Below, one piece after another: positions 38,438 to 53,901 of a DNA stretch of 64,000 bases. Within the stretch, counting starts at the first letter, position 1; each line of letters begins with the position of its first letter. The stretch lies in NCBI GenBank assembly GCA_018242665.1, contig JAFEBL010000006.1, positions 62,001 through 126,000 on the forward strand. Reading direction: 5' to 3'. The notes beneath the pieces were generated by a model that was given only the letters and a program-made list of their open reading frames with translations, was not told the origin of the DNA and did no database searches. The DNA comes from Nitrospira sp. (GTDB taxonomy: Bacteria > Nitrospirota > Nitrospiria > Nitrospirales > Nitrospiraceae). Both the position numbers and the translations under genes were made by a program.

Positions 38438-38814
38438 ACGAACGCTCCGTACGTCGCTGATTCACAAGGACGTCGGATCATGAGGCGGGGTGCGGACTGC
38501 TTCGTAGTCGAAATCCGCCGACGGACTCAGCCTACCGGCAAGCCGTCTACGGATCCTCTCCCACGACAGACACCATCCTCCATGAAGCCGTCACAGCACT
38601 ATACTGGGTGCAGCCTGCCATCGGAGAGACAGTCGCCTTCCGACACAGTCTGCCAACAAGCAACCTGGAGAAGTGTGGTGTCCCCAACGGGAGACGACTA
38701 ACTACACGCCAAAAGCCGCGACCACGGCTTATTCACAGGGAAACTGTAGCGCGGACTGTAGCTAGTGAAACTGGAGAAGTCAATGTCCCTCTTCTGATTA
38801 ACACCGAGGACTTA
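38438..38814. other. Intergenic region holding the left element junction
   Basis: This stretch has no supported gene. It contains the attL repeat at 38676-38692; sequence to the right of that is element DNA and is visibly more AT-rich (around 38800-38825). Confidence 0.6.
38676..38692. other. attL, left attachment site
   Basis: TGGTGTCCCCAACGGGA is identical over 17 bp to the 3' end of the tRNA-Glu gene at 53885-53901. The match ends exactly at both sides. It is the tRNA-end copy left by site-specific integration. Confidence 0.92.
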
Positions 38815-39537: not shown

Positions 39538-39684
39538 GCCGAGGGTCTCGCTTTACATACAAGCAGGCAGATCATTCTGAACTGGCATTCAAGGTGAACC
39601 ACGGCGCGCAGTCTAGGCATCTGCCTAGGAAGTGTCAACAACCCCGCCGGTCGCCGAATTTTGCCCAAAAATGTTTCCGGGTAT

Positions 39685-39788
39685 ACGCGATGCGCCGGAA
39701 GCCAATTTCCCCCGTACCCCTCGCGCGAAGATAGGACGCGCCTACACGCGCACAGAAGGACGCGAACGCCCGCGCGTCAATTCACGCG
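39685..39788. repeat. Cluster of ACGCG motifs
   Basis: Six ACGCG/CGCGT copies occur within 104 bp (39685, 39736, 39746, 39760, 39773 reverse, 39784), the last five at 10-14 bp steps. It lies in the 285-base gap between two leftward genes. It could be an iteron-like binding array or just a GC-rich tract. Confidence 0.4.
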
Positions 39789-39822
39789 CACGTGCAGGCA
39801 CAGGCGCGAAGAATGGACACGC

Positions 39823-40026
39823 TCACGGACGAGCGTTGCACTTCTCAGTGAGGTCGCGCCTTCCGGTCACGTAGGCGGCTCTGAGCGTTCCGCCGACTGC
39901 ATTGATTGTCTTGATATCGTCTTCGTAGCCCGCATAGATCTTCGCCGCCACATCCCTATGACGCTTGATGTACTCGACAGCAACATCAAGCACACGGACC
40001 TCTTCAAGGGTTAGATCTAGCTTCAT
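39823..40026 (-). CDS. Small helical hypothetical protein
   Basis: This 67-residue protein starts at the ATG at 40026 with AAGGAGAG upstream. It is charged and predicted helical (LTLEEVRVLDVAVEYIKRH), with no Cys-based zinc motif except a single Cys near the end. It lies divergent from the serine recombinase gene, with an inverted-repeat control region between them. By position it could be an excisionase or a small regulator; no motif proves this. A longer frame to 40092 lacks a ribosome-binding site. Confidence 0.6.
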   Translation of the reverse strand: MKLDLTLEEVRVLDVAVEYIKRHRDVAAKIYAGYEDDIKTINAVGGTLRAAYVTGRRDLTEKCNARP

Positions 40027-40178
40027 GGATACTCTCCTTTCTTGAGGAACATCCCAAAGACATAGCGTAGGTAAAACGGGGAGGTCGTTCAAGAGATCAC
40101 CTATACAGAAATCCCTTTCGTTTCCGGCCTCTCAAATGCTGCGCCAATCCCACAAATTCCCATTCGCCCCTAAATATT

Positions 40179-40205
40179 CGATATACACTTGATTTTTGTA
40201 TATCG
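40179..40205. promoter_or_regulatory. Inverted repeat operator/recombination site before the serine recombinase
   Basis: CGATATACA (40179-40187) and TGTATATCG (40197-40205) are perfect 9-bp arms with a 9-base AT-rich spacer, 40 bases before the recombinase ATG. It lies between divergent genes. It fits a dimeric repressor operator, or a resolvase-type binding site. Confidence 0.55.
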
Positions 40206-40244
40206 CTGTGCTACCTTCCACTCATCAACTTGGAGGCGCACACC

Positions 40245-40835
40245 ATGACCACAGTCAAGCGAGTAGCCTTATACGCACGTGTCTCGACAGACGGACAGAG
40301 CGTAGAGAATCAGCTTCGGGAACTGCGAGAGGTCGCGGAGCGGCATGGATGGCAGATCGTTAAGGAGTACGTCGATAAGGGCATTTCTGGAGCCAAGGGA
40401 CGCGATGAGAGGCCACAATTCAACGCAGTCCTCAATGGGGTAGCCCGCAAGGAGTTTGACCTTGTTGCGGCCTGGTCTGTAGATCGTCTAGGCCGGAGCC
40501 TTCAGCATCTCATCGGCTTCTTGAATGAACTACACGCCAAGAAGGTTGACCTCTATTTGCATCAACAGGGCATCGACACCACCACTCCCGCAGGCCGTGC
40601 GATGTTCTCCATGCTAGGCGTCTTCGGGGAGTTTGAACGGTCGATGATTCAGGAGCGCGTCAAGGCCGGGCTCAAGCGAGCCGTCGCGCAAGGGAAGGTC
40701 CTAGGTAGGCCGATGATTAACGGGGAGATCGAACAGAAGGTTCTCGCTCTCCGAGCCAAGGGGCAGGGCATTATCAAGATAGCCAAGACCGTAGGCATCG
40801 GCGTAGGTACCGTGTCCCGAATGGTGAAAGCCTAG
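40245..40835 (+). CDS. Serine recombinase (resolvase/invertase family)
   Basis: This 196-residue protein starts at the ATG at 40245, with TTGGAGG upstream. The catalytic domain has the nucleophile Ser14 in YARVSTDGQ, the conserved GxSGA region and VDRLGRSLQHL. The long helix E includes MFSMLGVFGEFERSMIQERVKAGL. A C-terminal helix-turn-helix (GIIKIAKTVGIGVGTVSRMV) binds DNA. It could resolve multimers, invert a segment or help the element's life cycle. No inverted pair of crossover sites flanking a segment was spotted. Confidence 0.93.
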   Translation: MTTVKRVALYARVSTDGQSVENQLRELREVAERHGWQIVKEYVDKGISGAKGRDERPQFNAVLNGVARKEFDLVAAWSVDRLGRSLQHLIGFLNELHAKKVDLYLHQQGIDTTTPAGRAMFSMLGVFGEFERSMIQERVKAGLKRAVAQGKVLGRPMINGEIEQKVLALRAKGQGIIKIAKTVGIGVGTVSRMVKA

Positions 40836-40849
40836 GCCGTCAGTTTCGA

Positions 40850-40877
40850 GGCTAGCCGGGAACTCTTCCGGCTGGCC
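40850..40877 (+). terminator. Stem-loop after the serine recombinase gene
   Basis: GGCTAGCCGG and CCGGCTGGCC form a 10-bp stem with one wobble and an 8-base loop, 14 bases past the stop. There is no T-run, so termination is probable but not certain. Confidence 0.5.
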
Positions 40878-40973
40878 GCGCCTCTCTCCTCCGTCCATCC
40901 GCAACCGATCCAAAATATTTTTCACCTTCATCCAACCCAGCCGCGCTTTCGTGTGGCTGACGGAGCTTCGTAA

Positions 40974-41798
40974 ATGCCTAAACTGTGTTCTAAATCACAC
41001 AACCTTAGAATGGTCGCGCTCATGCGGGCCAAGATTCCCACCAAGGTTTGCGTTGTCCCTCGCTGTGGGCGGGCCGTCTATCCCGGCCTTACCGTCTGTA
41101 GTAAGCACCAAATCGCCAGAGCCGTGAGAGGCCTAGCATGGGCCGAGCCCGATGTACTGCCCTTGGCGAAGAGACGGCCTTACATTCGCGCCTTACGTAC
41201 TCACCTGACGGAACGGCTTCGACTGGGAACAGACCTCACCGTCTATACCGCTGTCCGCGACCTCGCTTCGTTTATTCGCGTTCAGTGCATGCCTGAAGGT
41301 CTACAACCCTCCGACTTAGGAAGACGAGGCTTAACGGGAGTTCGCAAGATTCGAGCGGTCCTAGGCATCCTTGCTCGACAATTCGGTTCACCCGAAGCCG
41401 CTGCCCTTGCCGTGCTCTCTGTGGCCTGTGGCGTCACCCTCGCCGCGAAGGTCGAAAGTAAGGTTCAACACCCTCTCATCACTCGCGCCTCTATTACTTC
41501 CTCCATCTGGTTTCTCGTCTCAACACGCCCTCAGCGCTTTGGCGAACGCGTCTACCGGCGACACCGGCCACAGATCAAAGGTCCGCGTCTCCAAGCTGCC
41601 GTCGAAAAGCTTATCGTGAAGCCTTATGTCCCGTTCCTGCTGACGGCTGACACTGAGCACGAACTACTCTCGCACATGATGCAACCTGACGCGGCGGTCT
41701 ATGGGTTTCCTGGGTATCTGTGGAAACGCTGGAGCCGTCGCCTCAACAAGTCCATTCAAAAAGTCATGAACAAAGGAGCCTACTACCATGTCCGTTAA
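40974..41798 (+). CDS. Hypothetical protein with an N-terminal zinc-finger-like motif
   Basis: This 274-residue basic protein has an N-terminal C-x4-C-x10-C-x3-H arrangement (CVVPRCGRAVYPGLTVCSKH, residues 26-45) suggesting zinc binding. The rest is rich in Arg and Leu with predicted helices (GLTGVRKIRAVLGILARQFG) and a Trp/Arg-rich C-terminus (LWKRWSRRLNKSIQKV). I do not recognise a family. High basicity, the zinc motif and location after the recombinase suggest DNA binding, perhaps in replication initiation. It overlaps the next gene by 11 bases. Confidence 0.65.
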   Translation: MPKLCSKSHNLRMVALMRAKIPTKVCVVPRCGRAVYPGLTVCSKHQIARAVRGLAWAEPDVLPLAKRRPYIRALRTHLTERLRLGTDLTVYTAVRDLASFIRVQCMPEGLQPSDLGRRGLTGVRKIRAVLGILARQFGSPEAAALAVLSVACGVTLAAKVESKVQHPLITRASITSSIWFLVSTRPQRFGERVYRRHRPQIKGPRLQAAVEKLIVKPYVPFLLTADTEHELLSHMMQPDAAVYGFPGYLWKRWSRRLNKSIQKVMNKGAYYHVR

Positions 41799-42321
41799 GG
41801 AAGACCAGGAAGCGTTTGAAAAGGAAAAGACAGCACGAGCGAGCAAGATCAAAACCTATTTGCAGGGCAAGGCCGAGCCTAAGGCCAAACGTAAGGCCCA
41901 CCCAAAGGCCAAGCCTCAGGCAGCACTACCCGCAGAGACCATGGCCGAGCCTTCCACTCCCTCTACCGTGAATCAACCTATCAGCATCCCTGTCCGCGAC
42001 TCTTCCGCGCCTAATGGCTTACGGTATCGACCTATGAAGCCGTGGGAACGGATGGAAGGAAACCGAGTCGTTCAGTTCCGCCCTATGACACGTAGGGAGC
42101 GAGAGGCAGAACAAGAGTTCAAGTTTCTCGCCTCAGTGAAACGAGACGACGAAGCCCACAAGGAGCAACGCAGGAAGGCCGACGAAGAGGCGAAGCAATG
42201 GGCGAAGGAAGACCGACAGAGGCGAGAGCATGAGGAGCGAACCGGCTTGAGGGAATATGAGCCGGGGCGGTATCTCGATATTGAGGACGCAGTACGGCAA
42301 GGGTATATCCAGGGAAAATGA
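41788..42321 (+). CDS. Highly charged hypothetical protein
   Basis: This 177-residue protein is rich in Lys, Glu, Arg and Ala. A Lys/Ala/Pro-rich low-complexity linker (about 25-50) follows a short helix, then FRPMTRREREAEQEFKFLASVKRDDE and a long charged helix. It looks intrinsically disordered or coiled-coil. It overlaps the preceding gene by 11 bases with its ATG after AAAGGAG, implying coupled translation. A terminator follows it. No family is recognised. Confidence 0.6.
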   Translation: MSVKEDQEAFEKEKTARASKIKTYLQGKAEPKAKRKAHPKAKPQAALPAETMAEPSTPSTVNQPISIPVRDSSAPNGLRYRPMKPWERMEGNRVVQFRPMTRREREAEQEFKFLASVKRDDEAHKEQRRKADEEAKQWAKEDRQRREHEERTGLREYEPGRYLDIEDAVRQGYIQGK

Positions 42322-42397
42322 GCCCGATACGAGAGTAAAACTCCTTGGTGAGACGATGAAGCCTTGAATATTGAGACCCGCACAAATCTAAGGCGAG

Positions 42398-42427
42398 AGG
42401 GAGAGGCGCGTCAGTCTCTCCCTTTTT
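42398..42427 (+). terminator. Intrinsic terminator
   Basis: AGGGAGAG and CTCTCCCT form a perfect 8-bp stem with a 10-base loop, immediately followed by TTTTA. It closes the transcript of the Zn-finger-like and charged-protein genes. Confidence 0.75.
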
Positions 42428-42473
42428 ATTCACTGAATTGCATAGTTGTAAGGCTTGCGTTAGGTGGAACGGC

Positions 42474-42495
42474 TTGGAGGAATTATTTCCTCCAA
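42474..42495. other. Perfect 9-bp hairpin
   Basis: TTGGAGGAA and TTCCTCCAA are separated by TTAT. There is no T-run. It lies upstream of the gene starting at 42643, in an otherwise gene-free 320-base stretch (42322-42642). It could be an operator or a structured 5' leader that hides a Shine-Dalgarno-like GGAGG. Confidence 0.45.
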
Positions 42496-42642
42496 CAACG
42501 CTTCCCTAGCAACCAGATAAACCGCGAGGAGGCGAGGCCGTTTTAGTGGCATGGAAAAATATTTTCAACGGCTCTCAGGGGATAAAAACTCCTTGGCGCT
42601 CTTCATGCGGATTAGTCGAAACGCGAGGTTGTAGAGGCGAGA

Positions 42643-43476
42643 ATGCCTTGGCGGAAATTTTCTCCGCCCAAAGTCGCGTACGTAGCTTTCCAAACACTCC
42701 GGCACCCATTGCGGAGCCTCAGATACGGGTGTATAAGCGCTTACATGAAAGATGAATACGTAAATGATGATTGCAACCCTGAGCGATGGCATCAAGCCAT
42801 CCGCGCGGAGATGATTGCTCGTAGTGAGGAATTTGCGGAGGCCTTCGCGGAGGAGTGGCAGGCTGAAGAGCCGTATCTACGGCTCAAGGCTACGAAGAGA
42901 AGAAAGTCACACGATAAGGCCGCTTACCTGGCAGCTAAGGAACGCTACGAAAAAGCCTGCCACAATGTTCATCGGGTCATAGATACCCAGCGGGAGCTGT
43001 ACCGGGAAGCTGAACTTGCGGCCCTCAATAAGTACTTTGAACGACCAAAGCTAACCGATCCTACGCAATTCACTACTTGGCTGCGGAAGCATGTTGAATT
43101 GTATTTCAAGGCCCGTCTGTGTCCGGCCCGCGTCGTAATGGCTCCGATCTGGAAGCACGGTATCAGAGCACAATATGAGCAGCGCTATCTTCTTTTCGCG
43201 ACCCTCCATCGCGTGTTCATGGCCGACGGGGTAGAAGCCGCCATGAGGTTATATCAAGAAGAAATCGCCCAAAAGCTTCACGACAGCGTGTGGGCAACAA
43301 GCGAAACAGAAAAGATAAAAGGTAATCCCGCACAACGAAATGGCAGATACGATGGCGGATACTATGAGACTTCTATTCAAGCAGACCTTACGCCTTGGAT
43401 TGCGCCTGGACCAATTCCTTTCGTAGCGCGGGCAATCACGGAAATGGACGCCCACTTCGGCTTTGACTTCGACTAA
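42643..43476 (+). CDS. Hypothetical protein of the element
   Basis: This 277-residue protein is helical and rich in Ala, Glu, Arg and Tyr (AEMIARSEEFAEAFAEEWQAEEPYLRLKATKRRK; ERYEKACHNVHRVIDTQRELYREAELAALNKYFERP). It ends in an acidic-aromatic tail (MDAHFGFDFD). GAGGCGAGA precedes the ATG at 42643; an alternative start is the ATG at 42745. It is not recognised. The middle (FKARLCPARVVMAPIWKHGIRAQYEQRYLLFATLHRVF) has no catalytic motif I can name. By position it is the first gene before the small-gene block. Confidence 0.6.
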   Translation: MPWRKFSPPKVAYVAFQTLRHPLRSLRYGCISAYMKDEYVNDDCNPERWHQAIRAEMIARSEEFAEAFAEEWQAEEPYLRLKATKRRKSHDKAAYLAAKERYEKACHNVHRVIDTQRELYREAELAALNKYFERPKLTDPTQFTTWLRKHVELYFKARLCPARVVMAPIWKHGIRAQYEQRYLLFATLHRVFMADGVEAAMRLYQEEIAQKLHDSVWATSETEKIKGNPAQRNGRYDGGYYETSIQADLTPWIAPGPIPFVARAITEMDAHFGFDFD

Positions 43477-43528
43477 AAACCCTCGCTCCGGTATCCGCAA
43501 CAGACCGCCGCAAATTATCCCTGTGTTA

Positions 43529-43555
43529 CATGACATATGTGCCTGATATGTCGTG
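43529..43555. promoter_or_regulatory. Inverted repeat before the small-gene block
   Basis: GACATAT (43532-43538) and ATATGTC (43546-43552) are perfect arms around 7 bases, extendable to 9 of 10 matching positions. It lies about 145 bases before the first small gene. It fits a dimeric repressor or activator site. Confidence 0.45.
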
Positions 43556-43697
43556 ACAATCTGGCCGAAAAACAGGCCAAAATCCGAAAACTGTCATCCC
43601 TATAAAGGGAAGAAGCTTTTCGGCTTCGATCCTCTCTCTTTCTTTTCCGTTTTGTAACACTCTCGTTTCCGTTGCCTCTAACTAAAGGAGTCTCTCT

Positions 43698-43979
43698 ATG
43701 TCTGCCTTGGTGTCTATTCCTATTTGCTCCGACCCACACGCGCCGAGACCACGCATCAAGCATCAACCCAAGGTCCACTATCGGCCCTTCAAATTTTCAG
43801 ACCAAGACCTTCTGAATATTGATGCAATCCAACGGCTAACCATCCGAGCACAGAGCACGCCGAGACAGGCTTTCTCTATGGCTGCTGCCGTTCGTGCCGC
43901 GATTGCAGACTATGCCGCGAAGTTAAGGCGCAATGAAGGTACCACCAAACGCTCAACCAGTCCGCTGTCCGTGAAGTAA
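43698..43979 (+). CDS. Small protein, possibly ribbon-helix-helix-like
   Basis: This 93-residue protein has AAAGGAG 8 bases before its ATG. After a Pro/His-rich start, FKFSDQDLLNIDAIQRL and SMAAAVRAAIADYAAKLRR could form the strand and two helices of a ribbon-helix-helix DNA-binding fold. This is tentative. It heads the rightward run of small genes, and an inverted repeat lies upstream, so autoregulation is possible. Confidence 0.55.
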   Translation: MSALVSIPICSDPHAPRPRIKHQPKVHYRPFKFSDQDLLNIDAIQRLTIRAQSTPRQAFSMAAAVRAAIADYAAKLRRNEGTTKRSTSPLSVK

Positions 43980-44017
43980 CCGCATCCTCAACCACCATCA
44001 AAAAGGAGTTTCAACCA

Positions 44018-44257
44018 ATGCCCCATCATCATTCCATTACTCACGCTTCACTCGCTCAAGACATTGTGACTGCCCTTGTTGACCTCGATGAAAAACTGAA
44101 ACTGGCCGACGTAACCGACTTCGCAGACCTTGCCGACCGTCTTCGGAGCCTTGGCCGCTCTGAGTTCTTGCATCTCATGTCGTTTGCTTCGATTGCGTTT
44201 GGACTCGCACCGCTGGAGCCTGTCACTTCTGAAGTCGAAGAAAAGTCGAAGGAGTAA
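44018..44257 (+). CDS. Small acidic hypothetical protein
   Basis: This 79-residue helical protein (LVDLDEKLKLADVTDFADLADRLRSLGRSEF) ends in an acidic tail. AAAAAGGAG precedes the ATG. No family is recognised. It lies between the possible DNA-binding protein and the virion-like protein, 8 bases from the latter, in an apparent operon. Confidence 0.55.
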   Translation: MPHHHSITHASLAQDIVTALVDLDEKLKLADVTDFADLADRLRSLGRSEFLHLMSFASIAFGLAPLEPVTSEVEEKSKE

Positions 44258-44265
44258 CGTCCACA

Positions 44266-44895
44266 ATGAAACATGAACACCGATACCTGTCATGCGAACC
44301 GGCTTCGCTCACCTTGGCTTCGATGGGGATGGCTGCTGCTGGTGCTGGCGCGTCCCTCTATGGGCAGTCTCAACAACATGAGGCAGCGGAGCAGGTCGAA
44401 CAACAGAAGGCGGACGCGGTCAACGAACAAATCACCACGAATCGAAAACGCGCAACCGAAGATTACCTACAAACTGTCGAAGATGAGATGCTTCAGCAGG
44501 CACAGGAGAAACAAGCGCTCGCCGTCAAAGAGCAGGATCTCTATAAGGCCGAGCGAGCCGGTGCATCCTCCGCGAAAGTCGCCGCCGCTGAGTCTGGCGT
44601 TGTCGGTCAATACCTCGAAGCAATCCAAGCGGACTACAGACGACAGACTGACGAAGCGGCTATGCGTCTCGGCGTCAACCAAGGGAACGCCGACTATCAA
44701 CATACGCGCAACATCGAGGCCGCAACGACCATCTACAACAACCGCTCAACTAGCGTCATGCCCTATCAGAAGAACCCTGTGAAGCCGGTTGATTGGTTTG
44801 GCCCGATCTTCGGTGTCGCGCAAGCAGGTCTTGATATGGGTGTGAGGACAGGGGCGCTCATCAATCCGCTCACTCCTTCCACTCCGTCTAAGTAA
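44266..44895 (+). CDS. T7 gp14-like internal virion protein
   Basis: This 209-residue protein has a short hydrophobic Ala/Gly helix (LASMGMAAAGAGASLYGQ, about 15-32) and then a long Gln/Glu/Ala coiled coil. The motif AKVAAAESGVVGQYLEAI precedes an Arg-rich helix (DYRRQTDEAA), and the C-terminus has a second amphipathic Gly/Ala stretch. This order closely resembles phage T7 internal virion protein gp14 and related podovirus ejection proteins, which form a channel in the outer membrane during DNA entry. GAAGGAG precedes the ATG. It is the only gene in the element with a recognisable virion signature. Confidence 0.65.
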   Translation: MKHEHRYLSCEPASLTLASMGMAAAGAGASLYGQSQQHEAAEQVEQQKADAVNEQITTNRKRATEDYLQTVEDEMLQQAQEKQALAVKEQDLYKAERAGASSAKVAAAESGVVGQYLEAIQADYRRQTDEAAMRLGVNQGNADYQHTRNIEAATTIYNNRSTSVMPYQKNPVKPVDWFGPIFGVAQAGLDMGVRTGALINPLTPSTPSK

Positions 44896-44957
44896 TTCTT
44901 CCCCTCTTCCCCTAGAACCATTTCATCGAGGGCAGCAATTCCGCTGTCCTTGGTGAG

Positions 44958-45191
44958 ATGCGTTCGCCTTCCGTTGCAAAGGATCTTTCAGTGAAACCAT
45001 TTTTACCTCACGTGGCCTGTGCGTATCAGTTTAAAGACCGCTCAACCGTGACACCCTCAAAGCCCTTCGACCTTTCCGCCGCCGTCTGTGCGTGTCAAAG
45101 GTGGGCCTGTTTCTCGACTACGAGGGAGACAGGATTCCAAGAGTGGAGCAAACACATTTCAACCCAGATGAACCAGAAGGAGCACAACTAA
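44958..45191 (+). CDS. Doubtful small ORF
   Basis: This 77-residue frame ends directly before the next gene's ATG. It has no good ribosome-binding site, unusual composition (five Cys, many Ser) and no recognisable motif. It may be an untranslated spacer rather than a gene. Confidence 0.25.
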   Translation: MRSPSVAKDLSVKPFLPHVACAYQFKDRSTVTPSKPFDLSAAVCACQRWACFSTTRETGFQEWSKHISTQMNQKEHN

Positions 45192-45905
45192 ATGAGCTAT
45201 CCGACTCAATTCACGCGCTACACGATTGGCAGCGACAAACCTCAAGAAGAAATCGGTCAACGGAATAACCGCTACATCGGTCCGGAGAGTGGCTGGAAGG
45301 ACCATGGATTTAACAGCATGGAGGAGTGCCAAGCCGCATTTCAAAGCGAACTCTATCAGGTCGATGAGGAATATCGCCTTGCCGTACAAATCATGCTCGC
45401 CAACTCGCCGGAATTTGCGCCGGGGAATGCTGGTTCCGGTATCGAGATCGGAAATGGAGTACTTGAACGAAAGATGGCGAACACAGACGCCGCTCGACAG
45501 GCTGAAGACGCGGCTTGCTGGAACGAGTATGTTCAAAATCTCTTCAACGATCCAAGGTACCATACCTCGCCTATCTACAGACGCGAAGTCCGCGAACTCA
45601 TCGCCAAACATGAGGCTGAGTTTAACGGGAGTCCACTTGCCAGCCGTGTGGTGGATCGCACAGGGCAAGCCATGCGTATCGAATTAACGAGTGATGCCAT
45701 CGCAGAAACACGCGAGCAGCTTAAGGCCGAACATAAGGCCGATGCCAAAGCACAAGCGCAAGCCGCTGCAAGGTCCGCAGCAAGACAGGCGTACTTCTCG
45801 GCCTTAGGCACAAACGACCCCGGCGAAAGTGGACCGGATGGCATCTCTAACCAGACTCTTTTCGGGTCAACTTCGCCCACGCCTCAACCAGAATCAGAAG
45901 AATAA
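45192..45905 (+). CDS. Hypothetical acidic protein, possibly scaffold- or virion-associated
   Basis: This 237-residue protein has AGAAGGAG upstream of the ATG. The N-terminus is Gln/Tyr-rich, with FNSMEECQAAFQSELYQVDEEYRLAVQIM. A helical middle is followed by an Ala/Lys/Gln coiled region (EQLKAEHKADAKAQAQAAARSAARQAYF) and a flexible Pro/Ser/Gly tail. No family is recognised. The coiled, acidic make-up and position after the gp14-like gene would suit a scaffolding or internal virion role, but this is inference. Confidence 0.6.
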   Translation: MSYPTQFTRYTIGSDKPQEEIGQRNNRYIGPESGWKDHGFNSMEECQAAFQSELYQVDEEYRLAVQIMLANSPEFAPGNAGSGIEIGNGVLERKMANTDAARQAEDAACWNEYVQNLFNDPRYHTSPIYRREVRELIAKHEAEFNGSPLASRVVDRTGQAMRIELTSDAIAETREQLKAEHKADAKAQAQAAARSAARQAYFSALGTNDPGESGPDGISNQTLFGSTSPTPQPESEE

Positions 45906-45917
45906 GGAGCACGATCC

Positions 45918-46145
45918 ATGGCTATTACGATTCCGACACCGGGAGAAATTGCCGCGTTCGCACAAAAGCCACAGCCGGAAGTGATCGACTCAGACGTTAC
46001 TCCGACCAAAGAACGGCATGAACTGAGCACCGAGCAGACCCCCGCCGTCACGATCACTCGATACAGTGATGGGACGGTACGGAAGGACTGGGCGATTTCT
46101 CAAAGCGCAGTCGTCCAGCCGGAAACAGGGCTTCAGATCCAGTAA
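45918..46145 (+). CDS. Small hypothetical protein
   Basis: This 75-residue protein starts at an ATG with AATAAGGAG upstream, 12 bases after the previous gene. It contains a Pro/Glu-rich linker and the short segment VTITRYSDGTVRKDWAI, likely a beta-hairpin. It is not recognised. A structured repeat (hairpin A) follows immediately. Confidence 0.55.
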   Translation: MAITIPTPGEIAAFAQKPQPEVIDSDVTPTKERHELSTEQTPAVTITRYSDGTVRKDWAISQSAVVQPETGLQIQ

Positions 46146-46154
46146 GGACGGAAC

Positions 46155-46237
46155 GGCGTTAAAAGCCCTCCAGTGAGTCGGCAACGCCTACCCTTACCTC
46201 TGGTCGTCTTTTCCGTATCGTTGATCCTGGGGCAAAT
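46155..46237 (+). repeat. Structured intergenic repeat, copy A
   Basis: An outer stem GGCGTT/AACGCC (46155-46160 with 46183-46188) encloses GCC-CTC pairing with GAG-(TC)-GGC around loop CAGT. A partly conserved tail (ATCGTTGAxCCTG) follows. The same architecture recurs at 46571 with compensating base changes. Confidence 0.55.
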
Positions 46238-46330
46238 GCCCCTTCAAAAAAGGCCGCCAAATGAAGATTTGGGTTTCATTTTGGCGAGTCACTCCATCAT
46301 CACTCATTGTCTCCGGAGGGAGAAAGTCCC

Positions 46331-46420
46331 ATGCACGACCGTGAAACGAATTTTAGCCATGACTCAGACGAGCCGCAGCCCCTTCACCATCAAGCCGCGA
46401 ACCGCCAGGAAATGGAATGA
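46331..46420 (+). CDS. Possible 29-residue leader ORF
   Basis: ATG at 46331 has GGAGGG 10 bases upstream and encodes 29 residues rich in His, Gln, Asp and Glu, ending in TGA at 46420. It overlaps the next frame. It may be a leader peptide or chance. Confidence 0.25.
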   Translation: MHDRETNFSHDSDEPQPLHHQAANRQEME

Positions 46421-46559
46421 AGGGTTGATTGACTGTCTTCTAGCCCGCCGTCCGGAGAAGACGGCTACTGAACCGAAGTATACGGAGCCGATTACTGTAG
46501 CCGGTCCTCCGGGATGGGCTGAGGATCGGCCTTGGTGGTGGGGAGCCGGGAGAGCGTAG
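46359..46559 (+). CDS. Small hypothetical protein, start uncertain
   Basis: The frame 46173-46559 is open; the part from the ATG at 46359 (66 residues) looks most protein-like, with TIKPRTARKWNEGLIDCLLARRPEK and a Trp/Gly-rich end (GPPGWAEDRPWWWGAGRA). No good ribosome-binding site precedes this start. It lies between the two copies of the structured repeat. Function is unknown. Confidence 0.35.
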   Translation: MTQTSRSPFTIKPRTARKWNEGLIDCLLARRPEKTATEPKYTEPITVAGPPGWAEDRPWWWGAGRA

Positions 46560-46570
46560 AGAGAGAACCG

Positions 46571-46665
46571 AAGGCGTGAAGGCCGTCCAGTCAGACGGCT
46601 ACGCCTTACGCTCCGCCTTTTGTGCGTCCTTGCGTCCATCGTTGAACCTGCGCCCAATGCGTTCG
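46571..46665 (+). repeat. Structured intergenic repeat, copy B
   Basis: AAGGCGT/ACGCCTT (46571-46577 with 46601-46607) encloses GCCGTC/GACGGC (46582-46587 with 46594-46599) with a CAGTCA loop. Downstream, CCATCGTTGAACCTGCGC resembles the tail of copy A. Confidence 0.6.
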
Positions 46666-46716
46666 CACTGGAGGGCATTCTGTGAACCACTCCAGCCTGC
46701 CAACGCACGCGCCTCC

Positions 46717-46738
46717 TATGCTCATAGCTATGGGCATA
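46717..46738. promoter_or_regulatory. 22-bp near-perfect palindrome
   Basis: TATGCTCATAG and CTATGGGCATA are adjacent arms with one mismatched pair, 47 bases before the next gene. The form suits a dimeric DNA-binding protein. Confidence 0.45.
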
Positions 46739-46784
46739 ACTACGGCTCCAATTAGACCTATATCCAAACCAAGAAAGGCAACAC

Positions 46785-47165
46785 ATGCCCACTTCATCCC
46801 AAGATTGCTCGACTGATCTCGTTACCACCATCCTCGACGGTCCGCGACCAGGCACAGCCACCACGCGAGTAGACAAGAAGAACGTGCTCATTACTGGTCC
46901 CGCGTCGTTTACTGTGGTGAACAATGCCAGCAACGGCGCAGCGGTAGGCACCATGACCGCCGACGCGAACGCCGCACGGGTCTTCTCAATCACAGCCGGG
47001 AACGCGCAAGGGGTCTTTACGATCAATGCCAGTAGCGGAGCGATCACTGTTCTATCGAACACGAACTTAGGCATTGCGGGAACGATCCACCGCTTGACCG
47101 TGCGCTACTCCCTCACCAACGACACGGCGTTTGATGAGACGGTAGCGGTTGTCACTGTCACCTAA
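46785..47165 (+). CDS. Cadherin-like beta-sandwich protein
   Basis: This 126-residue protein has AGAAAGG upstream of its ATG. Residues 35-126 match the cadherin-like pattern: VGTMTADANAARVFSITAGN, then GVFTINASSGAITVLSNTNL, then a strand-rich end (TVAVVTVT). There is no signal peptide. In phage-related DNA such Ig-like or cadherin-like folds often decorate capsids or tails, so a virion-surface role is plausible. A terminator follows directly. Confidence 0.65.
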   Translation: MPTSSQDCSTDLVTTILDGPRPGTATTRVDKKNVLITGPASFTVVNNASNGAAVGTMTADANAARVFSITAGNAQGVFTINASSGAITVLSNTNLGIAGTIHRLTVRYSLTNDTAFDETVAVVTVT

Positions 47166-47177
47166 CGTCAGGTTTTC

Positions 47178-47206
47178 AAGGCCGGGACTGCCAACCGGCC
47201 TTCTTT
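47178..47206 (+). terminator. Intrinsic terminator
   Basis: AAGGCCGG and CCGGCCTT form a perfect 8-bp stem with a 9-base loop, followed by CTTTTC. It closes the transcript that ends with the cadherin-like gene. Confidence 0.75.
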
Positions 47207-47428
47207 TCACTGCCCCCCTGAAAATAAATTTTCACGAGTGCAGGCCTGCAAGACTTACAGCGTTCTCCTCCAAATCCTCAACCGCACTGCGTCCTTCTGT
47301 TGACGCCCACTCTTACGCCTTTGCAACACTTGCAACCATGCAATAGTTACCTAGGTTTGACTACTTGACGTTGTCCCATCTGTCATGGATACTGGCTTCA
47401 GCCATTCACACTTTTGGAGGTCTGAATT

Positions 47429-47749
47429 ATGTGGAGCATCCCACCGAGCCAAGCCGCCTCCCCGCCGATGCCTCAGCCGCAACCGCGCCGCGTTGTAGAG
47501 CATCAGCTTAGTCGAGCGACATATTTTCTTGCTGTTTCGTTGGTCAAGTTTGCGCCAGAGGAAACACTGATTGTGGTTCCTGGATTTCGAGAGACCACGA
47601 TCCCGCGCCTACTGGCCCTTGCCGAAAGCGGAAAAGGATCAGCCATCTTTCAAGGCCTCGCTGACGTATACCGCCGTCTCGACAGTATCGACCAAGCCGT
47701 GAGAGAGCAGGAACAGCGAGCCGGGATTGTTCGCGAAAAGAACGGGTAA
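47429..47749 (+). CDS. Small hypothetical protein
   Basis: This 106-residue protein has TTTGGAGG before the ATG. A Pro-rich start leads to a folded part (SLVKFAPEETLIVVPGFRETTIPRLLALAESGKG) and a C-terminal helix (VYRRLDSIDQAVREQEQRAG). It is not recognised. It lies 29 bases before the next gene in the same direction. Confidence 0.55.
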   Translation: MWSIPPSQAASPPMPQPQPRRVVEHQLSRATYFLAVSLVKFAPEETLIVVPGFRETTIPRLLALAESGKGSAIFQGLADVYRRLDSIDQAVREQEQRAGIVREKNG

Positions 47750-47778
47750 AATTTCACAATCACAGGAGGAGGGAGACC

Positions 47779-48333
47779 ATGAAGACTGCAACCGAACGAC
47801 ACCAGGGAGAAGCGGAGCAAATTGCATACGACCTTGAAACGTTGTGCATTGAGATGGCTCCGAACCAAGACGCGATCCAAGACGCAGCACGACGCGGCGA
47901 TCTTGGTAAGGAGATGAGCACGCTTACTCGCCAAGCGTTTGAGCGAGGAGAGGGAAGCCCCCGGTTTCGAAGGTTCATGGGGATACTTCAGCACATGGAA
48001 GCCGCCCTGGTAGCGACGTGCTTGGCGCTGTGTGTCGTGGTGCCCTCAGCGTTTGCCGTGGATCTTGGCTCGCTGGAGGAACTGACCAGCAACGCGCCTT
48101 CTTCCTGGGCCGCTGAGCCGCTGTATGGAGCGGACAAGGTACAGGCGGACGCCTACCTTCAGGAACGGCTTGACCTCAACACCTACCAAGCGGAGCGATC
48201 AGCCGAGCTACAGGCTCCTGTCACCTATGGAGCACCGAGCTATCAGAGTCCGACACACAACTTCACCGCGTACGGACCAAACGGAACGGCACTGAAGTGT
48301 ACACAGACAAGCCGTTCCGTAGACTGTTTTTAG
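47779..48333 (+). CDS. Hypothetical protein with an internal signal-peptide-like segment
   Basis: This 184-residue protein has AGGAGGAGGGAG before the ATG. The first 65 residues are charged and soluble. They are followed by MGILQHMEAALVATCLALCVVVPSAFAV (67-94), which looks like a complete Sec signal peptide. The rest is Tyr/Ser/Pro-rich with two Cys near the end (TALKCTQTSRSVDCF). Either it is a type II membrane protein, or an internal start at 47977 makes a second, exported product. No family is recognised. Confidence 0.6.
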   Translation: MKTATERHQGEAEQIAYDLETLCIEMAPNQDAIQDAARRGDLGKEMSTLTRQAFERGEGSPRFRRFMGILQHMEAALVATCLALCVVVPSAFAVDLGSLEELTSNAPSSWAAEPLYGADKVQADAYLQERLDLNTYQAERSAELQAPVTYGAPSYQSPTHNFTAYGPNGTALKCTQTSRSVDCF

Positions 48334-48471
48334 AATAGAAATCACCGTGAAAGGAGCGAGGCGCTCAGCGTCTCCTAGGGTACCCCGGCCTTCGCCCGCC
48401 GATGTTGTCTAGGAGAATGTCTGGGCGCTTCGTTCGTTTCGCACAACCATGAAGGGCGAAACTTCATCATC

Positions 48472-50565
48472 ATGATTACTCATCAACGCGACCGGCTAGC
48501 CCGTTGCTCGTATCAGATGCACCGCGATCAGCTCGAAAGCCACCACAACCGCCTCAGTCCCGCTCACGATCATTCCATAAGATCCTTTCACGCGCTCCTT
48601 GCTGGAATGGTAGACGGCAACGATACAAGCCTACAGGGAAAGTGGGCATGGGGCAGCGGGACCGGATGGGGAAAATCCACAGGCCTCTGTTCCTTTATGC
48701 GGGGCCTTGGTTCTCTCTACATGCTGAACCAACCTGGACGACCGTGGAACCATCAAGGCCACGTCTCCGCGATCATCACCGCCGCACGGATTGAAAGCCT
48801 CTATGAACTCCGCGACCAAATGACGCGAGCCGACAGGGGGAACCCAGCCTTCCGCTTTCCTGTCCCGGCTCATCGAATAGCCGTCTTGCATAGCGATTGG
48901 ACAGGGAAGTATGAAGCGAGCGAAGACGGCAAGGACGCGCCTATCGTCCTTGTCGCTCATAACAAGCTGAAGCATCTCGCCAAACGGCCCACCAAGGACC
49001 AAGAGGAGTTTCTTTACTACCACGGTCAACCGCGAGACCTCTGTATTGTGGACGAAGCCTTCAGCGAGAGCGAGGTAGGGTATCTAGATCAAGGCCTTCT
49101 CTGTAACGCGCTTCGGACCTGTCTCCTCAATGCGAAGGACCATCCTAAGGCGCATGACTTCGCGGACCTCCTCACCACCCTTGAACCGTTGTATGAAGCG
49201 ATTAAGGCCGAGAACCTCCGACAGGATAAGCTGACCGTCCTTGACCACTCAGAAGGGATGATCCATTCACCCGCCTTGAGCCAAGAAGACATCACGACCC
49301 TTGAAGGCTTAGTCAAAAGAGTCAGCTTAAGCCGAGACGATAAGACCTTACTCTGTAAATTTCTCCAAATGATTCCGTCTCCGTTGCGCCTGATTCGAGG
49401 CCATCAAAGCGGAGTCGTCACCGTCATTCAGACCATGCCGCCGTGTCTGACCAACCGTATCGAACTCAACGCCTCCTTTGAAGTCGGTATGCTGTCGGCC
49501 CTTGATCCGACAATCAAGAATGCTGACGATCATTTTCCCATGCTTCAGACGTTGAAGACTCAGTATGGGCTAGAAGGGTTAGCGGGAATCATCGACTACT
49601 CAGATATGCAGATTACCCACCTTCAACGCGGCGGAGGCAAAAGCACGATGAAAGGCCACCTGGAAGACCTCGCCAAGGAGAGCGGGTCTACGAAGGAGAT
49701 TCTTGATTTCTATATCTCGGCGATTAAGGCGACTCCAGAAGACGAAGGCGTCTTGGTGCTGACCTACAAGGACGACGGCGTAGACTATGTAAGGCAGCTT
49801 CAGCGAATCTTTGTGAGAGCGGGTATCGACATCAACCAGAAGATCCAAGACGCTGAAGGTCACACACAGCCTAGAATTGCCTTCACCACCTATGGGCAGC
49901 ATGTTGGAACGAATCAGTTTCGCTACTGTGCGACCGGCATTCTCGCTGGAGTCCAGCAGAGACATAAGGCCGATATTGCCGGAGCCATGTGTGGTGCGAG
50001 GAAGTCCATCGCCAGCCGGATCGACTTTGCAGAGGTAGACCTTGTCCATCAAGCCGTTGCTGCGTCCGATGCTCAACAGGCGATAGGTAGGTTACGCTGT
50101 CGTCTGGTGAAGAATGGGAAGGCGCTACCGGCTCGAATTTATGTCGTCCATCTCGACTCGGCTGACCGTACGTTTAAGACACGGTTGACCAAGGCCTATC
50201 CTAAGGCCGCATGGAAAGACCAGGCCTCAGAGAACCGAAAACAACAAGGCCAGTTCTTCAACCTAGCGAAAGCCGTAGCTGAGTATCTTGAACAAAGCTA
50301 CGTCGGAGCTTCCATTTCGACCGATGCAATAAAGACTCATCTCAGCTCAAAAGCAAAACGTTCCTCTGACCATAAGATAGATATAGGTTCCGTAACGTTT
50401 TCAGATCAGGTGTTTAGAAAGGCTATCCGATTGTTCCTAAAGGATAATTCTGGATGGAAACGGCAAGGACATGCCCTTGTGAAGGCCGTCCATAAGGCAG
50501 GGCTGGAGGTCGAGGAAATGGCAGATCCGATAGACTGGGGCGAGGATTCTAAAAAGGCTGTGTAG
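48472..50565 (+). CDS. SF2-helicase-like replication protein
   Basis: This 697-residue protein has a Walker A GSGTGWGKST (61-70), a DEAx-type Walker B CIVDEAF (191-197) and a motif VI QAIGRLRCR (536-544) supplying arginine fingers. VLVLTYKDDG (about 427-436) fits motif IV. This is a superfamily 2 DEAD/DExx-like core with divergent spacing. The last 120 residues may hold a DNA-binding domain. It probably unwinds DNA in element replication, as plasmid and phage-satellite helicase-primases do. No primase motif is seen. An 8-codon ORF (48449-48475) overlaps its start by ATGA. Confidence 0.8.
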   Translation: MITHQRDRLARCSYQMHRDQLESHHNRLSPAHDHSIRSFHALLAGMVDGNDTSLQGKWAWGSGTGWGKSTGLCSFMRGLGSLYMLNQPGRPWNHQGHVSAIITAARIESLYELRDQMTRADRGNPAFRFPVPAHRIAVLHSDWTGKYEASEDGKDAPIVLVAHNKLKHLAKRPTKDQEEFLYYHGQPRDLCIVDEAFSESEVGYLDQGLLCNALRTCLLNAKDHPKAHDFADLLTTLEPLYEAIKAENLRQDKLTVLDHSEGMIHSPALSQEDITTLEGLVKRVSLSRDDKTLLCKFLQMIPSPLRLIRGHQSGVVTVIQTMPPCLTNRIELNASFEVGMLSALDPTIKNADDHFPMLQTLKTQYGLEGLAGIIDYSDMQITHLQRGGGKSTMKGHLEDLAKESGSTKEILDFYISAIKATPEDEGVLVLTYKDDGVDYVRQLQRIFVRAGIDINQKIQDAEGHTQPRIAFTTYGQHVGTNQFRYCATGILAGVQQRHKADIAGAMCGARKSIASRIDFAEVDLVHQAVAASDAQQAIGRLRCRLVKNGKALPARIYVVHLDSADRTFKTRLTKAYPKAAWKDQASENRKQQGQFFNLAKAVAEYLEQSYVGASISTDAIKTHLSSKAKRSSDHKIDIGSVTFSDQVFRKAIRLFLKDNSGWKRQGHALVKAVHKAGLEVEEMADPIDWGEDSKKAV

Positions 50566-50612
50566 GTAAGAGAGGGGCTCAGGGTGTCGTTGCCTTGGGC
50601 TCCGCCTTACCT
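50564..50612 (+). terminator. Stem-loop after the helicase-like gene
   Basis: AGGTAAG (50564-50570) and CTTACCT (50606-50612) flank 35 bases and are followed by TTCC. The stem is modest; it is a candidate terminator or mRNA end structure. Confidence 0.4.
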
Positions 50613-50709
50613 TTCCTAGTACAGATAACTGAAGCGGCCAGGATCTTCAAAGCGGGCTCTGAATGCGGATGGAAGCCAGTGGGTTACGATGGGGGACAAA
50701 GGGTTACAT

Positions 50710-50738
50710 TTGTCTGACAAAAGTAGTACACTTGTAAT
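50710..50738 (+). promoter_or_regulatory. Sigma-70-type promoter for the 56-residue ORF
   Basis: TTGTCT (50710-50715), 17 bases, then TGTAAT (50733-50738, 5 of 6 matches to the -10 consensus). The ATG at 50793 follows about 47 bases after the likely transcription start. Confidence 0.55.
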
Positions 50739-50792
50739 GCGCGTGCAGTCCGTCTGCATCGAACAGCCTCACTCCTGAAAGGAGCTATTCCT

Positions 50793-50963
50793 ATGGGCAT
50801 GTATAGCGCCATGATGAAACAAGTACTCGAACACGCTAAGAAGCTGGAGAAATCTGGTCAGTTAGACCGGATGTTTCAGCCGCAGGTGCGGAGGCCGGAA
50901 CAGGAGGTTGTTTGTCGTCCTCTTCTGAAGCCGGAACAGGATCGCGTGCGTCGCGGTAAGTAA
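50793..50963 (+). CDS. Small 56-residue protein
   Basis: The ATG at 50793 has GAAAGGAG 8 bases upstream and a promoter before it. It encodes MGMYSAMMKQVLEHAKKLEK, then a basic Arg/Pro/Gln-rich tail ending RVRRGK. An amphipathic helix plus basic tail suits a small DNA- or membrane-binding regulator. Its last 128 bases overlap the end of the convergent membrane-protein gene. Confidence 0.5.
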   Translation: MGMYSAMMKQVLEHAKKLEKSGQLDRMFQPQVRRPEQEVVCRPLLKPEQDRVRRGK

Positions 50964-51723
50964 TGTTAAGGTTCTTGATCTCATTATACCTAATCAAAAA
51001 ATAATCCCCTGGCTCTATCCGTTGCCAAGAAAACACGGCCTTTTCACTGTCCACAACCTTCCTGAATTTACTTCTCCTTGCAGCGGTAATAATTAGGTCT
51101 CTTAGTGCTCCTCTCTCATCCGTGGTGAAGGCCGCAACGAGCCCTCTATAGAGACGCGTTTTGCCAGGTTCTTCAGTTGGCTCATCAGTCAAGGCATCGA
51201 CCCACACGATAACAAACTTCGACGGAACCCCCTCCAACTGCCCCCGACCGAGAATTGAATATATCCAGTCATTCCTGAAAGCAAAAATCTTTGGGCAATG
51301 CACGTCTAGCTCAAATTCCCACACGATCCAGCGAGAGAGATGACCAAATCCAAAAGCCGCTAACAGGATAAGTCCATAGTAGGTGAGGAGATGGATTTTG
51401 CTTTGATAAAACCGATCAAGAACCTCTGAAAATTTGAAGGTGTAGTCAGATCCAGTAGTTGAAAATTCCCCTGCCAACATCCTAAAGACACTTTCGATGT
51501 TTAGCGTGTGATGAATGACATGAGAATGCTGAAGGCAAATAACAATAAGGACGCCTGCAATGTGAAATGGGAGCGAGAAAATGATGGCTTTGGCTAGGTC
51601 GTCCGTCCAGCTTCGTTGAAGCACCTGACGAGTGAATTCATGGGAGAAGTAACAAGCTAGGAAAATGTATCCGGGAAGGGCGAGAAGAAGGAAAAGTAGA
51701 GATGTGAAGGCTATGTTAGTCAT
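50836..51723 (-). CDS. Membrane protein of unknown function (element cargo, possibly DUF6338-like)
   Basis: This 295-residue protein has an N-terminal transmembrane helix (MTNIAFTSLLFLLLALPGYIFLACYF) and further hydrophobic stretches near 45-65 and 115-130. A soluble C-terminal domain of about 150 residues follows (FAFRNDWIYSILGRGQLEGVPSKFVIVWVDALTDEP; AVFSWQRIEPGDYFLIRYNEI), then a Pro/Ala/Glu tail. It recalls DUF6338-type membrane proteins, but I cannot verify this. AT-richer than its neighbours and near the right end, it is probably cargo. Confidence 0.65.
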   Translation of the reverse strand: MTNIAFTSLLFLLLALPGYIFLACYFSHEFTRQVLQRSWTDDLAKAIIFSLPFHIAGVLIVICLQHSHVIHHTLNIESVFRMLAGEFSTTGSDYTFKFSEVLDRFYQSKIHLLTYYGLILLAAFGFGHLSRWIVWEFELDVHCPKIFAFRNDWIYSILGRGQLEGVPSKFVIVWVDALTDEPTEEPGKTRLYRGLVAAFTTDERGALRDLIITAARRSKFRKVVDSEKAVFSWQRIEPGDYFLIRYNEIKNLNITYRDARDPVPASEEDDKQPPVPASAPAAETSGLTDQISPAS

Positions 51724-51788
51724 ACAGCCGAGCGGAAGCTACCATAGACACCCTGTTTTGGCTAGGCCAATGACTTAAAATGTATAGC

Positions 51789-52067
51789 TCAAGACTTCAT
51801 GTGACAGACAACGAGTCCTCGCCGGGTTTCCTTCTCAATCAGGCGCAGAAGGTTGCCGTAGGGTAGCCGCATAGGTAAGCCATCCGGCATATCTGCACTA
51901 AATTTCTCCCCGTCTGAGCTTCTTCTTCCTTTGACTTGAACAGGGGGAGACGCTGACTCCTCATGGATTATAGCGAGGACATATCGCGTCTCCCCCGGCT
52001 CAAAGTTCCTCAGGACTGAACAATTGTGTTTGTCTTTCAAGTCTAGTATCCACGTCGGTTCTCCCAT
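51789..52067 (-). CDS. Small hypothetical protein
   Basis: This 92-residue protein starts at the ATG at 52067, with AAGGAG 6 bases upstream. It appears beta-rich (WILDLKDKHNCSVLRNFEPGETRYVLAIIHEE) with no membrane segment. It is not recognised. It lies between the membrane-protein gene and the integrase on the same strand, so it could be an excisionase-like or cargo protein. Confidence 0.55.
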   Translation of the reverse strand: MGEPTWILDLKDKHNCSVLRNFEPGETRYVLAIIHEESASPPVQVKGRRSSDGEKFSADMPDGLPMRLPYGNLLRLIEKETRRGLVVCHMKS

Positions 52068-52211
52068 ATCGTCTCCTTGCTGAGGCTGTGGGTTGAGCTT
52101 CACGCAAGAAGCTTACTGGAGGTTTAGATCAACCAACAACCAGAATAAATGGTCTCGACCCTGCAGCAACCTTTAATGTGGGTAGAAACGTTCAGGAGAG
52201 GGGAAGACCTA

Positions 52212-53771
52212 TCAAACCAGTCGTTTCAGCATTCCTCTGTACGCCTCCCCTAGCACATCCATCGAATTCTTCAACTTCTCCAAGCTGAATGCTCCGGTAT
52301 GTGTGTAATCTTTAAAATGCACGTCTGTCCGGCCTCCTGTGTGGCCTGTGAGCGCAGTAGCATGAGCATCCGGAACCCCATGCTCTGCTAGCTTCGTTAT
52401 GCCTCCGTGCCGGAGTGAGTGCAGCACCTTACCCTTTCCACCTATCTTGAGCCGCTTGACCAACCTCGCCCACGCCTTCCCCGGCACATCTCCATAACCG
52501 TTACCCTTGTGTTTGAGTTGAGGAAAGATGCGCTTATGGTCGATGGATTCGGCATACCGAAGAAATCCCAATTGAAGGAGCAAATCTGGCAGCGGCACCA
52601 CTCGACGAGAGCCGACATTCTTCACGGTCTTTTCCTTGTCCTCTTCTCCTCCATCAATGAAATGAAAACACCAAAGGCCGGTCTTTGGATCTTTCTTCAC
52701 ATCGGCCTTATCGAGTTGATACACCTCCTCGCGCCGAGCCGCTGTGAGGAGGAGAGCCAGCAGGCCGAAATAGTATTCGGGATGAGTTTCCTTCCAGTCT
52801 TGGAAGTTCTTACTACAGAAGATGGTAGCTAGCTCCTCGTCTGTGAATGGAACCACCTTCCTAGCCTGTGACCGTACCACGCTCTTTGCGATCCTCAGCC
52901 CTTGTGCCGGATTGCGATGGTCTTCAGCCAAGAAGCCTTGAGCCTGAGCCCATGTAAGGCAGTGCTCAAGGCTATGCAGGTACTTATTCACGCTTGCGGC
53001 TCCTAGCTCCATCTCGCCGACCATCTCTTCCTTGTAGGCTCTACAATCGGCCTTCGTGATGTCCCCTACCGGCTTATCTCCTCCCATTACTTTTATGAAC
53101 CGTTGGAACCCCGCTCGAATCTGGCTCTGTGTACGTGTCTGACGGTTGGAAAATTCCTTCATGTAGGCGTCCACGACAACGGAGAAAGGCTTAGAGACTA
53201 TGAGCGGTCTTGCTTCGGTGTAAGGGCGCTTTGACTCTTCCCGGTACTCCCCATCCATTCGCCTGATTTCTTCGCGGTACAGTTCCACCCGCCCCTTCAA
53301 CAGCTCATGACACAGCCGCCCAAACTCCGGCGAACCTGGTTCGATTGGCAGGCTATGACGTGTAACGAGTTCCAAGGCGAGGTCTTTCACTTTCCATTGT
53401 TGATTCATCAACCGCGCTTCGTCCGCCTCTTCCAGCAAATCCCCATAGGTGTCCTTGTACCCTTCGGCCTCCTCAAGCTCATTCGTACCGCTCTCAGCCT
53501 TAGCCTGTTCTGTCCGCTCAAGCTCTGAGTGAATCCATTGCGCGACAAGGGCTTTGATTTGATCGGGACGCATAGCAGCTCCGTAGCGTTGAAGATGAAG
53601 GAAGAGACGACGGCCTTGGCTCTCGAAGGTGCAGGCCCTTAGTTTGGCCTTCGTGCGGTCTGTTGTTCTGAGCGATTTCCAGAACTCTACACGACCCTGA
53701 AGCAACGACCAAAGGTTTTTAGGGACAGTGAGGCGGATGTAATAGGACTTGCGGGAGTTGTGGAACCACAC
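52212..53771 (-). CDS. int: Tyrosine site-specific integrase
   Basis: This 519-residue phage-type integrase carries the catalytic set: Arg346 in LLTAARREEV, the H-x-x-R pair in HSLRH (451/454), His477 in TGHTGG and the nucleophile Tyr489 in FKDYTH. The N-terminal part (WFHNSRKSYYIRLTVPKNL) resembles the short arm-binding domain seen in many tRNA-targeting integrases, followed by a core-binding domain (about 195-300). It lies 113 bases from the right att site, in the 3' end of tRNA-Glu, and catalyses element integration and excision. Confidence 0.95.
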   Translation of the reverse strand: MWFHNSRKSYYIRLTVPKNLWSLLQGRVEFWKSLRTTDRTKAKLRACTFESQGRRLFLHLQRYGAAMRPDQIKALVAQWIHSELERTEQAKAESGTNELEEAEGYKDTYGDLLEEADEARLMNQQWKVKDLALELVTRHSLPIEPGSPEFGRLCHELLKGRVELYREEIRRMDGEYREESKRPYTEARPLIVSKPFSVVVDAYMKEFSNRQTRTQSQIRAGFQRFIKVMGGDKPVGDITKADCRAYKEEMVGEMELGAASVNKYLHSLEHCLTWAQAQGFLAEDHRNPAQGLRIAKSVVRSQARKVVPFTDEELATIFCSKNFQDWKETHPEYYFGLLALLLTAARREEVYQLDKADVKKDPKTGLWCFHFIDGGEEDKEKTVKNVGSRRVVPLPDLLLQLGFLRYAESIDHKRIFPQLKHKGNGYGDVPGKAWARLVKRLKIGGKGKVLHSLRHGGITKLAEHGVPDAHATALTGHTGGRTDVHFKDYTHTGAFSLEKLKNSMDVLGEAYRGMLKRLV

Positions 53772-53884
53772 GCGCCGACCTCATAGACCGTAGACATAAA
53801 CCGTAGCGAGCTACAGTCGGCCCTGTGAAATCGACACAGCGAAACGCTGAAACGCTAGTCTGGGAGCGGTATTTGTGAGGTAAT

Positions 53885-53901
53885 TGGTGTCCCCAACGGG
53901 A
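53885..53901. other. attR, right attachment site within tRNA-Glu
   Basis: This 17-bp repeat matches 38676-38692 exactly and is the 3' end of the tRNA including CCA. The crossover preserved the full tRNA on this side. Confidence 0.92.

Follow-up and report, generated by a model that had tools for sequence, protein, structure and literature searches.

A tRNA-borne element of Nitrospira with a T7-type gp14 gene and a duplicated scaffold motif, a probable satellite of T7-like podoviruses

Phage-inducible chromosomal minimalist islands (PICMIs), which are satellites of marine bacteria, depend on virulent helper phages. PICMIs carry no capsid-remodelling genes (PMC10803314). In the Staphylococcus aureus pathogenicity island SaPI1, the small protein CpmB has a C-terminal motif in common with the scaffold of the helper; the CpmB dimer offers this motif twice, bridges two capsomers and compels heads to form at a smaller size (Dearborn 2017, PMC5644958). 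The searchable literature contains no satellite with internal virion proteins and no described satellite that uses T7-like podoviruses as helpers, and we found no phage satellite reported for Nitrospira in the literature searched. Here we describe a 15.2-kb integrated element of Nitrospira sp., located at positions 38676-53901 of a 64,000-nucleotide stretch of contig JAFEBL010000006.1 (hereafter, the window). The element encodes a T7 gp14-type internal virion protein together with a protein that carries the C-terminal motif of T7-type scaffolds twice, and it is probably a phage satellite with T7-like podoviruses as its helpers.

The window comes from contig C6 of a 4.06-Mb genome (G000); Candidatus Nitrospira defluvii and Nitrospira sp. 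UBC2 are among the relatives of this genome. The element is flanked by an exact 17-bp direct repeat: attL (38676-38692, TGGTGTCCCCAACGGGA) copies the 3' end of tRNA-Glu, and attR (53885-53901) is that 3' end itself, within the tRNA-Glu gene (53885-53962, minus strand). When joined, the chromosomal flanks match uninterrupted sequence in the related genomes G019 and G021 (84-85% identity across all 461 nt); the contiguous, unoccupied site shows that the element is absent there and that its borders are correct. A tyrosine integrase (52212-53771, minus strand; PF00589 and PF20172), with homologues in related elements, adjoins tRNA-Glu. The element has the anatomy of a phage satellite, namely a recombinase, attachment (att) sites, an incomplete set of virion genes, and a length about one-third of a 40-45 kb T7-like genome, which is the usual satellite ratio (PMC10803314).

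The first of the two virion-derived genes (44266-44895; this and all genes below lie on the plus strand unless marked minus) is preceded by a good ribosome-binding site, GAAGGAGT, and encodes a protein of 209 amino acids (aa) that the initial annotation had called gp14-like. It is a genuine gp14-like ejection core protein. Residues 10-190 match PF24072 (T7_gp14) with 51.9 bits and E=1.2e-13, which is 25 bits above the gathering cut-off of 27 and covers most of the protein, and there are further matches to PHROG internal virion proteins. The AlphaFold model is a long helical hairpin with a mean predicted local distance difference test (pLDDT) score of 71. Foldseek, run against 350,542 PDB chains, ranks 8e4g_a and 9jz0_0, both of them T7 gp14, first and second, with TMt values of 0.75 and 0.65 and weak E-values of 0.44 and 0.52. 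Weak Foldseek E-values are common for helical hairpins. Since the two best fold matches are both T7 gp14, the structural comparison does not support an unrelated coiled coil. The protein is 34-36% identical to homologues in two IMG/VR contigs that plainly belong to T7-like phages: L063, with the gene order gp12-gp13-gp14-gp15-gp16-fibre, and L078, which also carries scaffold and capsid genes. With tblastn, no named phage with a close gp14 or helicase was found. The ratio of nonsynonymous to synonymous substitutions (dN/dS) against orthologues is about 0.1 or less with dS near saturation, and dN against sister elements is 0.2-0.3 with dS saturated; the gene is thus under purifying selection.

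A second gene (45192-45905), which the initial annotation had missed, appears from its sequence to be virion-derived as well. Its product matches the T7-type scaffold family PF05396 with 28.2 bits (cut-off 27.1) and a PHROG head assembly family at 1.4e-7. Because the PF05396 match is limited to profile positions 150-183 of 188, we regard it as a scaffold-derived protein and not as a scaffold: the likeness is confined to the C-terminal 40 residues of gp9-type scaffolds, and the long N-terminal and middle part is missing. We trained a hidden Markov model (HMM) on the C-terminal 40 residues of each of four scaffolds (T7, RHEph21, Pasto and P-SSP7). Full-length phage scaffolds contain this motif once, at their extreme C-terminus, whereas the window protein contains it twice, at about residues 38-72 and 119-134. 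All 13 of the 13 related-element proteins contain it (most weakly in L030 and L033), in two copies in most. Across 9,155 open reading frames (ORFs) from the window and the related loci, only this family and T7 gp9 scored at E<0.5. In that search the two copies of the window protein score weakly (0.004 and 12), whereas a small search shows them clearly; the duplication is unambiguous in the better-scoring orthologues L038, L025 and L043. By analogy with the scaffold biology of 80alpha and P22 (PMC5644958), the scaffold C-terminus would be the part that binds coat protein in T7-like phages.

As the initial annotation had observed, the element has no capsid or portal. In Pfam and PHROG scans none of its genes was recognised as encoding a capsid, portal, terminase or tail protein, so that the genes expected of a T7-like phage or prophage (portal, capsid and terminase) are missing, and these families were likewise absent from 80 further proteins of related elements. 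The two options that had been raised for such a locus now differ in standing. Modification of helper-phage particles is favoured by the combination of gp14 and a duplicated scaffold motif with nothing else virion-like, and the building of an unrecognised virion of its own is disfavoured by the absence of capsid, portal and terminase from about 20 related elements in two phyla. The suggestion that helper prophages might reside in the same hosts did not hold up: a profile search detected a T7-type portal in 0 of 172 Nitrospiraceae genomes, and the same search recovered the portals of T7 and Pasto as a positive control. The helper is therefore not a resident T7-like prophage.

Carrying two T7-type assembly look-alikes without a shell of its own, the element probably travels by hijacking T7-like particles. 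We propose a model in which the tyrosine integrase seats the element in tRNA-Glu, its own superfamily 2 (SF2) helicase would replicate it, and the shell, portal, terminase and tail would be borrowed from an infecting T7-like phage. Given that only the C-terminal scaffold motif has been kept, and in duplicate, the product of 45192-45905 would bind two coat subunits simultaneously, and it may act as a competing or alternative internal scaffold that steers assembly towards small heads fitting a 10-15 kb genome. In the inner core, the satellite gp14 would take the place of the helper's protein or be added to it, with the outcome that satellite DNA is properly ejected or that the helper is put at a disadvantage. 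The satellite assignment itself is based on anatomy; packaging by the helper and redirection of its capsids are what the model would predict.

The helicase (48472-50565, 697 aa) is the marker gene of a wider family. Its fold is that of a DinG/XPD-type SF2 helicase, and identification as a terminase was rejected on this ground; no sequence relative was found in the PDB, and a search of IMG/VR contigs for this helicase returned none. A candidate replication origin lies close to the helicase gene of the N. defluvii element (L039:7404-7926), where iteron-like direct repeats occur along with AT-rich tandem repeats. No primase was recognised, and the helicase, together with such iteron-like repeats in N. 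defluvii, probably drives replication. Two gp14-bearing elements without the helicase (L028:18964-20000 with L029:2-571, and L035:14183-15520) encode instead related PHROG 4756 proteins of 445-535 aa, perhaps as an alternative replication protein.

Of 175 Nitrospiraceae genomes, 13 contain homologues of the helicase. The elements with mapped ends measure 15.2 (window), 15.0, 15.0, 12.8, 12.1 (N. defluvii), 13.4, 9.9 and 13.8 kb and occupy tRNA-Glu, tRNA-Leu or tRNA-His. Integrase, resolvase, helicase and the scaffold-like gene are common to the elements, with the scaffold-like gene undetected in those of N. defluvii, L042 and L035; gp14 was found at eight loci in six genomes, always within such elements. 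Further loci were detected with the helicase profile in the order of Reyranella. One of these loci, in Reyranella sp. CPCC 100927 (L070:5096-19444), is a 14.3-kb element at tRNA-Asn with an 18-bp repeat; it encodes an 802-aa homologue of the protein in the gp15 position of T7-like Rhizobium phages and no recognised gp14. Five other loci of this order, with ends unmapped, do carry gp14, and at one of them a homologue of the gp13-like acetyltransferase adjoins gp14 (L088:8172-8681), as in T7-like phages. Borrowed T7-type core genes thus recur in two phyla. A family of 290-340 aa proteins in the Reyranella order (L070:14091-14966, L087:2950-3906, L091:12763-13794 and L092:13647-14639) resembles, in a weak profile match, the middle domain that T7-type scaffolds possess.

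In the gp14 tree, in which several deep forks are weak, satellite and phage sequences interleave: L035 groups with the phage contig L063 (49% identity), the Nitrospiraceae sequences form a group apart from those of the Reyranella order, and L090 is up to 50% identical to rhizobial phages. The simplest reading is that gp14 was picked up repeatedly from local T7-like phages. The 80 further proteins of related elements include endonuclease VII, TIR, AbiJ and AlbA domains, and the TIR, AbiJ and AlbA genes suggest defence cargo; one gp14-bearing element, for example, encodes a TIR-domain protein (L035:8663-9472). Endonuclease VII-like (Holliday junction) nucleases are found in several elements (L030:7030-7686 and L039:13314-13841) and possibly process concatemers before packaging.

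Taken more broadly, these elements may form an undescribed satellite class that specialises in T7-like podoviruses and is found both in Nitrospirota and in the Reyranella order; within this class, a bivalent scaffold mimic in a single chain would redirect heads and the satellite's own gp14 or gp15 would re-equip a stolen ejection core; we give this fuller proposal about an even chance. Several points weigh against the satellite assignment, which comes from gene content and element borders, as that of 45192-45905 as scaffold-like comes from sequence comparison. Neither a terminase small subunit nor a packaging site was recognised, and the analysis identified no isolated helper phage of Nitrospira. 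Only part of the Nitrospiraceae elements carry gp14, which is thus not essential to the family, and the Reyranella-order elements lack a clear scaffold motif, with a weak hint only from a 291-aa protein that aligns to the scaffold core domain at an hhalign probability of 35%.

Among the alternatives, the one that survives best is a self-defence island, in which the scaffold motif and gp14 would serve as dominant-negative decoys that spoil T7-like assembly or ejection while the element itself stays unpackaged. The TIR and AbiJ genes of related elements would suit such an island, and a bivalent coat-binding fragment could poison assembly; yet defence genes of this kind and inhibition of the helper are also known from satellites, interference and mobilisation can coexist, and the integrase, the precise att sites, the dedicated helicase and the use of Glu, Leu, His and Asn tRNA sites in two phyla indicate a transmissible element, so that we consider this explanation unlikely. 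Decay of T7-like prophages, with gp14 and a scaffold fragment left by chance, is largely excluded and highly improbable: temperate T7-like phages do exist (TRX32-1, for example, is recorded as lysogen-induced), but the same small gene set persists in many genomes under purifying selection and with defined att sites, the helicase is not of T7-like type, the scaffold motif occurs in two copies, none of the 172 genomes searched holds a T7-type portal, and gp14 here precedes the scaffold-like gene. This last point reverses the phage order and counts against a remnant left by simple deletion. A further alternative is an autonomous virus in which gp14 and the scaffold can be recognised and the capsid and portal cannot. 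The several small conserved proteins without an assigned family would leave room for it, but we consider it similarly improbable: among the conserved proteins of the family, only the helicase, the integrase and the PHROG 4756 protein (in two elements) reach the size of a T7-type portal (>500 aa), no head or packaging family is represented among the 80 other element proteins, and the borrowed gp14 and scaffold are T7-like parts that work with T7-type coats.

The remaining genes of the element complete its description. Near the end opposite the integrase lie a 240-aa cargo protein without a family match and with a possible C-terminal membrane helix (38815-39537, minus strand), a small protein kept in the sister elements of genomes G031 and G044 (39823-40092, minus strand; 71-81%) and a serine resolvase (40230-40835; PF00239, E=3.7e-46) with homologues in most related elements. 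These are followed by a 274-aa protein whose Cys-Cys-Cys-His zinc-finger-like motif is also present in Reyranella-order elements (40974-41798), a conserved 177-aa protein (41788-42321; 54-58% identity in G031 and G044), a 277-aa protein without a match in Pfam or PHROG (42643-43476), and small conserved proteins of 93 aa (43698-43979) and 79 aa (44018-44257), the latter directly 5' of gp14. A small conserved ORF separates gp14 from the scaffold-like gene (44958-45191; 66% identity in two sister elements), and a conserved 75-aa protein follows (45918-46145; 59% identity in G031). The cadherin-like ORF (46785-47165), which the initial annotation had counted in a virion-like module, lies outside the conserved module and is accessory at most: its PF00028 match (E=0.0048, 17.7 bits) is below the cut-off of 28.8, it has no homologue in sister elements, and it sits in a segment of about 456 bp that is lacking from the sister element in G044 (L027). 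We therefore rejected it as a decoration protein. Further downstream are a conserved 106-aa protein (47429-47749; 53% identity in G031), a conserved 184-aa protein (47779-48333; 69%) whose sequence shows a single internal hydrophobic segment and, at the C-terminus, two cysteines, and which is possibly a membrane or exclusion factor, and, beyond the helicase, a 295-aa membrane protein (50836-51723, minus strand) that is 86% identical in G044 and 37% in L040. PADLOC gave no match for the cargo genes of the window, and a promoter and terminator scan found sites no more numerous than in shuffled sequence.

The element is a satellite by anatomy, and by gene content it is a member of neither the phage-inducible chromosomal islands (PICIs) nor the P4 group. 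The closest precedent is SaPI1, a PICI, in which a satellite protein also shares the scaffold's C-terminal coat-binding motif and presents it twice. In contrast to CpmB, the motif here is T7-like in origin and duplicated within one chain instead of by a dimer; the proposed helper is a podovirus, an ejection-core protein is carried in addition, and no Pri-Rep, TerS or CpmA is recognised, nor any other Cpm homologue. If our reading is correct, this would be a second, independent reuse by a satellite of the scaffold's coat-binding tail after CpmB; such a recurrence would point to a general rule, and T7 itself offers a system in which to test it directly. With P4 and its helper P2, the element shares a tRNA-borne integrase, a size of about 11-15 kb, defence cargo and, as we would predict here, control of capsid size; P4's Sid, however, forms an external cage, whereas the motif described here derives from an internal scaffold, and Pfam and PHROG scans found no P4-type alpha primase, Sid or Psu. 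PICMIs, tycheposons and virion-encapsidated integrative mobile elements (VEIMEs), all satellites of marine bacteria, are likewise small, integrated and site-specific, and no T7 gp14 or gp15 or T7-type scaffold motif is reported for them in the searchable literature. The scaffold C-terminus, gp14 and gp15 probably derive from the T7-like phages themselves (Autographiviridae, such as T7, RHEph21, Pasto and P-SSP7), which have complete gene sets for head, tail and packaging, whereas the element lacks all the rest. Should it indeed draw on such phages, molecular piracy would extend to T7's own group, in nitrifiers that are important to the nitrogen cycle, and the carriage of an ejection-core protein suggests that satellites may control the delivery of DNA as well as the size of the head.

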